A stretch of 35,286 bases of DNA from assembly GCA_020720455.1 (NCBI GenBank), contig DYOQ01000026.1, positions 1-35,286 of the forward strand, read 5' to 3'. This DNA comes from Bdellovibrio sp. Its GTDB lineage: Bacteria > Bdellovibrionota > Bacteriovoracia > Bacteriovoracales > Bacteriovoracaceae. Shown here in pieces: positions 27,528-28,655 of the stretch. The notes below the pieces were generated by a model, which was not told the DNA's origin, ran no database searches, and saw only the letters and a list, made by a program, of their open reading frames with translations. Both the position numbers and the translations under genes were made by a program. Every line of letters begins with the position of its first letter. The stretch's first letter is position 1.

Positions 27528-28655
27528 TCATTTTTTAGTTTTCCTCTTAATCACTTTTTTCTTAGTGGTAGTGGTAGTGGCACTAGGACTTAAGTGCTCA
27601 ATATCTTCTCTAATAAAATTTTCTAATTGTTTTTCAGAAGGAAGCTCGACCATATATCTTGAGACAAAAAGCTTATTATCCATTCCGCCTGTAGCATATT
27701 TTACTTTTACAGAATCCTTAGAGGTACAAAGAATAATTCCTATTGGTGGATTGTCACCTTTGCTCATTTCATTATCTTTAAAATAATTAAGATAGAAATT
27801 CATCTGTCCAGCATCGGCGTGAGAAAAAGACCTATTCTTTAGATCAATAAGAATATGGCATTTGAGGATTCTATGATAAAAAACTAGGTCGATACGATCA
27901 TGTTCATTATCGAGAGTAATTCTTTTTTGTCTGCTCTCAAAACAAAATCCTTTACCTAATTCGAGGAGAAAATCTTGAATGTGATTAAGTATAGCTGTTT
28001 CTAAATCATTTTCATTATATTCTGGACGCTCCTTTAATCCAGTAAACTCCAATAAGTATGGATCACGAATAGAATCTTCAACAGTGACAATATCATGTTT
28101 TATTTTAGCAAGAAGACTTTTCTTGTTTTTGGATAGACCTGTTCTTTCGTAAAGTAAGGAACCTATTTGCCTTGAAAGCTCTCTTACCGACCATCTTCCC
28201 TTGATGGCCTGAATCTCATAGAATGCCCGTGGTAGCGGTTTAGCGACTTTTATTAATTCAGCAAAATGAGAAAAAGAGAAATGCTTTAACATTTTATGTA
28301 TATCTGGAGAGTATTTAGAAGATTGTTCAGACGGTGCCTGAACAATTCTAGTAACTAGCAATTGGCCAGACAGTGTCTGGCCAATTTGGGGGTATGCAAG
28401 ATAAAATTGTCGAAAAGTTTTAAGATTGGAAAACGACATCCCTTTTATACCTTTAGAAGTTAATTCCTTAGTGAGAACTCTTATTAAATTTTCACCATAT
28501 TTGGCCCTGTCCTGGCCTTCCTGCTCATATTCATAAATATGATGGCCGATCAACCAGTTTCTAATGGTAAGGGCTTGATTAACGCTCTGAATGGCCCTTA
28601 GTTGAAGATCGCTATTTATCTTTTCTATTTGTAATATTAATTTATCAAATTTCAC
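27528..28655 (-). CDS. YhcG-type PDDEXK nuclease family protein (DUF1016)
   Basis: The N-terminal DUF1016 domain has IRNWLIGHHIYEYEQEG and YGENLIRVLTKEL. The C-terminal nuclease-like domain has LETAILNHIQ (Glu), RIDLVFYH (Asp) and LIDLKNRSF (Asp-x-Lys), followed by GQMNFYLNYF, a complete PD-(D/E)xK-like set. The protein ends in a Lys/Thr-rich tail. Between the halves sits a variable linker made of the peptides IGQTLSGQL and IVQAPSEQS, each encoded by a palindromic DNA unit (see the repeat entry). These genes are usually accessory and mobile. It sits 49 bp downstream of ychF on the same strand. Biological role uncertain; proposed roles include defence or DNA recombination. Confidence 0.88.
   Translation of the reverse strand: MKFDKLILQIEKINSDLQLRAIQSVNQALTIRNWLIGHHIYEYEQEGQDRAKYGENLIRVLTKELTSKGIKGMSFSNLKTFRQFYLAYPQIGQTLSGQLLVTRIVQAPSEQSSKYSPDIHKMLKHFSFSHFAELIKVAKPLPRAFYEIQAIKGRWSVRELSRQIGSLLYERTGLSKNKKSLLAKIKHDIVTVEDSIRDPYLLEFTGLKERPEYNENDLETAILNHIQDFLLELGKGFCFESRQKRITLDNEHDRIDLVFYHRILKCHILIDLKNRSFSHADAGQMNFYLNYFKDNEMSKGDNPPIGIILCTSKDSVKVKYATGGMDNKLFVSRYMVELPSEKQLENFIREDIEHLSPSATTTTTKKKVIKRKTKK
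28322..28386 (-). repeat. Paired in-frame palindromic units within the DUF1016 gene
   Basis: Unit B is 28322-28346 and unit A is 28361-28385. They are 25 bp each, 39 bp apart (13 codons), in the same reading phase, and agree at 19 of 25 bases. Both are inverted repeats: unit A has 13-bp perfect arms (28360-28372 and 28374-28386) around one central base, while unit B has arms ATTGTTCAG / CTGAACAAT. Positions 5-6 read GC in A and TT in B, and the pairing positions read GC and AA, so the changes keep the stem. A small CTAGTAACTAG palindrome (28348-28358) sits between them. Confidence 0.85.

Follow-up and report, generated by a model that had tools for sequence, protein, structure and literature searches.

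The DUF1016 gene of the window and its two palindromes

The window, a 35,286-bp stretch of a Bdellovibrio sp. contig, carries a DUF1016/YhcG gene in which an earlier note had described two palindromes. Both Pfam domains of the product, DUF1016_N (PF17761) and YhcG_C (PF06250), score above the curated cut-offs, and PADLOC places the gene in PDC-S02 (3.1e-129), a candidate phage-defence family. In the list below, k counts bases outward from a palindrome axis and columns are those of the protein alignment.

27528 to 28655, minus strand: DUF1016/YhcG gene, 375 amino acids (Pfam DUF1016_N 1.4e-30, YhcG_C 2.6e-56)
28143 to 28628, minus strand: DUF1016_N, residues 10-171, predicted ParB/Noc-like helix-turn-helix DNA-binding domain (Pfam and models)
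28395 to 28433, minus strand: predicted recognition helix, residues 75-87, with Ser76 (k7), Lys79 (k9) and Thr80 (k5) (model; co-varying columns 77, 80 and 81)
28360 to 28386, given on the plus strand: site 1, perfect 27-bp palindrome AATTGGCCAGACA-G-TGTCTGGCCAATT, axis at 28373, the first base of codon Leu95
28322 to 28346: site 2, imperfect copy ATTGTTCAGACG-G-TGCCTGAACAAT, axis at 28334, the first base of codon 108
28260 to 28262, minus strand: Ala132 (column 108, k4), equivalent of ParB R204 by motif alignment (co-variation; ParB contacts from PMC7383237)
28182 to 28187, minus strand: Val157 (k3) and Arg158 (k2), second predicted DNA-reading element (co-varying columns 133 and 134)
27624 to 28076, minus strand: YhcG_C PD-(D/E)XK nuclease domain, D256 and K273 present (Pfam; closest folds EndoMS/NucS, Can2 and Card1)

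The nuclease residues E215, D256 and K273 are invariant across 93 family sequences. Among the nearest relatives of the window protein are one from a Bdellovibrionales bacterium (77% protein identity) and one from an Oligoflexia bacterium (89% over residues 139-360); judging by them, the draft genome of the host is Bdellovibrionales-like. The host genome has two DUF1016 genes, the second of which (L001 874-2058, contig 78) contains a different perfect palindrome, AATTTCGCCACCACTGGTGGCGAAATT, and its own insert.

Inspection of the two palindromes confirmed their presence. Site 1 is built as 13+1+13 with all pairs matched, and 28373 is the sole odd-axis centre in the window with 8 of 8 pairs at k = 2-9; site 2 retains 10 of 12 pairs, with mismatches at k1 and k3. 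A distance of 39 bp between the axes and a shared reading phase had been claimed and are right; in the minus-strand gene, each axis is the first base of a codon. The identity of 19/25 between the copies, the double change of GC to TT matched by GC to AA, and the encoded peptides IGQTLSGQL and IVQAPSEQS were also correct. Folding z-scores of the palindromes were -5.2 and -5.7, and no shuffle was equally good. The earlier note had placed them in the linker between the DUF1016 and nuclease domains, but they lie inside DUF1016_N, right behind the predicted recognition helix. Its impression that other DUF1016 proteins have QT.SGQ-like peptides at the same place turned out to be right.

Conservation of the palindrome across the family

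Palindromes of differing sequence are found at the same place in homologues from Bacteroidota, Planctomycetota, Pseudomonadota and other groups, insert-free genes included. To guard against selection bias, symmetry was scored without any palindrome search, around one anchor only, base 1 of the codon that precedes a conserved Trp by six. With this anchor, mirror complementarity in 97 insert-free genes was 71, 91, 89, 94, 99, 90, 97, 95, 74, 71, 71, 72 and 82% for k = 1 to 13 and fell to the codon-shuffled expectation at k = 14, indicating that the dyad spans exactly 27 bp. The profile was unchanged with 137 insert-free genes or with 65 representatives under 60% identity. Over these sets the values at k = 2-8 were 88-99%, compared with 30-38% for the codon-shuffled null at codon positions 2 and 3 (z up to 19), and the best other centre reached 37%. 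Codon shuffles keep the protein and lose the symmetry in this fixed-codon profile, which bears out the proposal that the nucleic acid itself, over and above its codons, is under selection.

A clear palindrome, by the threshold of the script, was present in 176 of 218 genes, about a fifth being without one, and 92 of the 97 strong palindromes in these 218 genes lay inside the segment, which makes up 10% of gene length. In insert-bearing genes, the axis of palindromic sites was at codon position 1 in 115 cases versus 2 and 4 at the other positions. The site was also present in all 14 further named genes from eight phyla (Actinomycetota, Deinococcota, Cyanobacteriota, Acidobacteriota, Fusobacteriota, Campylobacterota, Bacillota and Pseudomonadota), one of them from phage WO, and it was found at 60% G+C as well. 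The number of sites varies from 1 to 5 per gene, and copies within one gene agree at k2-6 (90-98%) and differ at k7-9 (71-77%).

Two further observations concern copy number. One DUF1016 gene (L060) has a linker of about 150 residues with at least 4 tandem palindromic units, and two Bacteroidota genomes (G144 and G634) have 15-16 DUF1016 genes and fragments each; these are divergent, and some are neighbours.

Duplex site versus hairpin

The arms of the palindrome change jointly and stay complementary, and the single strands fold well; both facts would suit selection for a hairpin structure in RNA or DNA, through translation pausing, processing or a cruciform. A transcribed hairpin would tolerate G-U pairs. 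In the core (k2-8) of the sense strand of the 97 genes, 634 of 679 cells were Watson-Crick, 2 were G-U and 15 were A-C, where shuffling predicts about 70 G-U and 75 A-C. The near absence of G-U argues for a DNA site and against an RNA hairpin as the selected form, and that part of the original proposal was not upheld. A structured RNA hairpin, considered as a class for this element, was rejected because G-U tolerance on the transcribed strand was not observed. In addition, k1, the innermost pair, could not form within a hairpin loop, yet it was complementary in 71-80% against 34-36% expected, as a duplex dyad would be. Moreover, the bases of the site are predictable from residues encoded outside it (see below), which a sequence-blind structure does not explain. 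We consider the hairpin explanation very improbable, although a structure-specific role of the DNA on top of protein binding is possible.

Co-variation of DUF1016_N residues with half-site bases

Mutual information with average-product correction was calculated between half-site bases (for the training genes, those of the left arm) and alignment columns outside the palindrome-encoded segment (3757 pairs). The sequences are related, a weakness that was countered by clustering on identity, by shuffling codons and shuffling within clusters, and by held-out sets rather than by a full phylogenetic model. The strongest of the 3757 pairs fall in DUF1016_N and read as a recognition code, in which six residues co-vary one-to-one with six half-site positions, as follows.

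Column 77 and k7: Arg with G (44/45), Ala with C (15/15), Ser with T or C
Column 81 and k5: Tyr with A (51/51), Asn with A (17/17), Arg with C (24/31)
Column 133 and k3: Arg with C (39/45), Lys with C (13/13), Val with A, Thr with G
Column 108 and k4: Arg with C (29/31), Leu with A, Val with G
Column 80 and k9: Lys with G (25/29), Trp with C (27/28), Met with G
Column 134 and k2, eighth in rank: Arg with C (68/69), Asn with A

Columns 77, 80 and 81 form one face of the predicted recognition helix. Because C on the strand read here is G on the other, arginines and lysines would face guanines.

Insert-free genes served to train the six-pair code, which was then tried on 52 held-out genes of the insert class, all under 70% identical to any training gene. 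Their LLR was +122 versus -161 +/- 24 after shuffling, and none of 5000 shuffles came close. Leaving out whole 50%-identity clusters and shuffling within clusters gave a similar picture (511 versus -94 +/- 34), and a hand count over the 14 extra genes found the predicted base in about 63 of 73 pairings. Between close relatives, the co-varying residues differed in 47% of cases when the site had changed versus 19.5% when it had not, and the corresponding values for other residues were 22% and 19%.

The palindrome is translated in every gene, so it might be supposed that the peptide it encodes and the helix-turn-helix residues co-evolve as amino acids and that the DNA symmetry arose by chance. 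Such a protein-only origin is extremely unlikely, considering that codon-shuffled genes keep the protein without the symmetry, that the code holds for sites displaced into inserts, and that a few genes are flanked by own-core sites in non-coding DNA. By contrast, the co-variation and the held-out tests support the suggestion, made when the palindromes were first noticed, that they are recognition sites for the nuclease itself. Judged from these sequence comparisons, the palindrome is very probably where the product of the surrounding gene binds DNA.

The window gene can be read with the same code. With Ser76 in column 77, T or C is expected at k7; copy 1 carries C there and copy 2 carries T. 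The G at k9 predicted by Lys79 and the C at k2 predicted by Arg158 are present in both copies, and the A at k3 predicted by Val157 is present in copy 1 and in one half of copy 2. The double difference that had been taken for structural compensation is located at k7/k8, where Ser76 accepts C or T at k7 and no co-varying residue was found for k8. Since a homodimer needs two matching half-sites, the double difference needs no such explanation. From this fit of the window copies, together with the agreement at k2-6 and difference at k7-9 across multi-copy genes, site 2 looks like a duplicated, partly decayed second site.

Predicted fold of DUF1016_N

The AlphaFold2 model of the isolated domain of a homologue (L115) had a pLDDT of 94. 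In a structure search with it, ParB/Noc proteins were the 12 top matches, with Z of 9.6-7.8, and the next unrelated fold was at 5.7, although with helical domains a Z under about 13 may lack specificity. In the full model of the window protein, residues 28-174 were ParB/Noc-like and the C-terminus was a nuclease of the EndoMS/Can2 type. ParB was absent from the PDB matches of the DUF1016_N sequence profile, the ParB motif alignment being made by eye, and Foldseek E-values for the ParB likeness were weak (0.13); the fold link thus rests on the predicted structure and the motif alignment. ParB/Noc proteins bind palindromes as dimers. The motif alignment pairs column 81 with ParB N178, column 105 with G201 (Arg in Noc) and column 108 with R204, residues reported by the ParB/Noc crystal study to contact the site or to determine it (PMC7383237). 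For reading of the ParB type through equivalent contact residues, the evidence is that of co-variation (columns 81, 105 and 108). According to these models, DUF1016_N is predicted to resemble the ParB/Noc DNA-binding domain.

The N-terminal domain of this family was called unknown by Kosinski (2005), and a 2025 survey of ParB fusions has no mention of DUF1016 or YhcG. In the open-access literature we found no description of the fold of DUF1016_N and no paper on DUF1016 palindromes or DNA binding.

Genomic distribution of the sites

Exact matches to the core CAGACASTGTCTG in three genomes were all within DUF1016 genes; the planctomycete genome also had some one-mismatch core matches outside them, at about the control rate. 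Among 299 Pseudomonadota, CCAACAGGCTGTTGG occurred 27 times versus once for the control. Fifteen of these were in DUF1016 genes and one was directly upstream of its own DUF1016 gene, the others being without outer arms or terminator-like (L255). Among 198 Bacteroidota, all four places with GCAGACASTGTCTGC were DUF1016 genes or remnants. One locus (L279) was considered as an orphan full-length site and rejected, as it is located in a DUF1016 remnant. Full-length sites were thus found only in or beside DUF1016 genes in the genomes searched.

This distribution bears on the suggestion that the palindrome is itself mobile and entered the coding sequence with a mobile element, in the manner of Rickettsia palindromic elements. 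The sites are in frame, some genes have several and a class of inserts exists. Nevertheless, insert-free genes have the site too, at one fixed codon and in one phase across at least 10 phyla, and full-length sites are not scattered in genomes. The suggestion was therefore abandoned, its probability being close to nil.

A few genes have extra sites outside the frame (E. coli yhcG, L022, L112, L135 and L197). Apart from a few real cases, there was no general excess of upstream operator copies, own and other-gene cores matching at 10.5 and 10.3 of 18 positions. In L022, own-core palindromes around positions 1945, 2327 and 3175 lie on both sides of the DUF1016 frame and inside it. On viral contigs, three single-protein scans gave no DUF1016 match, and a query with the alignment gave 26 loci.

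Among 104 ORFs neighbouring DUF1016 genes, type I/III restriction-modification genes (HsdM, HsdR and HsdS) and PADLOC 'mad2' matches were frequent. This neighbourhood fits a cargo gene in defence loci. It is also in line with a sequestration switch, in which the nuclease would be held inactive on its gene's own site and set free once that site is lost, for instance through degradation of the chromosome by a phage. That the site is private to the gene, and that the family is a candidate for anti-phage defence, agree with such a switch. With one site or a few per gene, however, not many dimers could be kept bound, and we regard the switch as quite unlikely.

Alleles of E. coli yhcG

The E. coli K-12 yhcG gene (L157 4828-5955) has three in-frame internal sites. 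In E. coli a further, non-coding site follows 27 bp after the yhcG stop codon and exists in two allelic versions whose arm changes are matched. Compared with other E. coli, K-12 YhcG has R for the W of the LPWSTY motif and Q for the W of TYWEIG. In the O26 and O157 genes (L164 and L166), two sites were lost in a deletion that shifts the reading frame. In two strains (L160 at about 5234 and L163 at about 4153), the region of a small transposase gene replaces the C-terminal half of yhcG, and the junction is exactly at the edge of the third palindrome.

Another role for the site would be that of a cleavage target, at which the PD-(D/E)XK domain would cut its own gene or a sister allele, so that repair would drive duplication, loss and conversion. 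The conserved nuclease residues and the variable copy number (1 to 5 per gene) are in keeping with it, as are the E. coli alleles with deletions and transposase-fragment fusions whose breakpoints are at or beside sites. These alleles fit ordinary repeat recombination as well, because site-rich regions, being repeats, recombine anyway. In addition, unlike a homing endonuclease gene, the DUF1016 gene does not interrupt its site, and the host gene would be cut. Cleavage as the explanation is accordingly unlikely, though it deserves to be kept in mind.

Proposed mechanism

The site follows the gene between phyla, so its reader must travel too, and the encoded protein is the obvious reader. We propose that two DUF1016 proteins would bind, one per half-site, each through one recognition helix. 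Binding at about 280 bp into the frame, a distance that depends on the gene, might then repress the gene as an internal operator or roadblock; this step is less certain than the first. With its operator within the coding sequence, the gene would keep control when moving between hosts, plasmids and restriction-modification loci, and a potentially harmful nuclease gene could be restrained wherever it lands, independent of the local promoter. Extra in-frame copies, such as those in the window gene and E. coli yhcG, may add binding strength. Classical operators would often come with a second copy close to the promoter, and most of the genes have none there. The explanation as a whole, a nuclease that binds the palindrome of its own gene as an internal operator, appears likely, and that autoregulation is the main purpose of self-binding has a little less than an even chance.

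A bolder and rather doubtful possibility is that these proteins are self-addressed nucleases, in which a ParB-like reader and a 27-bp address found only in its own gene co-diversify and the nuclease acts on, or is checked by, that gene through self-cleavage, gene conversion between alleles or release upon destruction of the gene. To our knowledge, a nuclease acting on or checked by its own gene through a private address is a control principle without a counterpart.

The DUF1016/YhcG family, a candidate anti-phage system, is widespread: bacteria and plasmids commonly carry it, as do some phages. For it the analysis offers a predicted fold, a predicted binding site, an amino-acid-to-base code and a mechanism testable in E. 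coli. The more than 200 protein-site pairs amount to a natural library for the evolution of DNA specificity, in which the site is constrained by the protein sequence it encodes. A codon choice set by the gene's own product would be relevant to the fields of gene regulation and phage defence.

Comparison with known systems

Rickettsia palindromic elements are described as selfish elements of about 100-150 nt inserted in many genes (Ogata et al. 2000, as cited in PMC4316617). DUF1016 sites are likewise palindromic DNA translated in frame, but they are 27 bp long and keep a fixed place in one gene family. Membership in this class was rejected, since dispersal in unrelated genes, variable position and a length of 100-150 nt were all lacking.

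Homing endonucleases, like the DUF1016 family, are nucleases with mobile genes and long, near-palindromic recognition sequences; I-SspI is a PD-(D/E)XK homing endonuclease with a pseudo-palindromic site. A homing gene, however, interrupts its own site, whereas the DUF1016 gene contains the site intact.

Internal operators in coding sequences include lac O2 in lacZ, the PurR site in purB and the gal internal operator. As in these cases, the DUF1016 site is a protein-binding palindrome, here a predicted one, within a reading frame, and such sites can lower transcription. The lac, PurR and gal operators are nevertheless read by the regulator of another gene, and they are not a trait of a whole family that diversifies along with the encoded protein.

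Close parallels are ParB-parS, Noc-NBS and KorB-OB, which have the helix-turn-helix fold predicted for DUF1016_N, a perfect palindrome and a dimeric reader. The specificity residues of ParB and Noc are in the recognition helix and the following helices, as in the code described here. The KorB OB oligonucleotide contains the odd-axis palindrome TTTTAGC-G-GCTAAAA, like the DUF1016 sites (PMC11790492). parS and NBS are fixed sites (PMC7383237), whereas the DUF1016 site varies strongly from gene to gene and is located within the gene of its proposed reader. Unlike ParB, DUF1016 proteins have no N-terminal CTPase domain (Pfam finds DUF1016_N and YhcG_C only) and have a PD-(D/E)XK nuclease instead. 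As far as sequence can tell, DUF1016 is a system that works like ParB/KorB site recognition and, by its domain make-up, is not a member of the ParB family.
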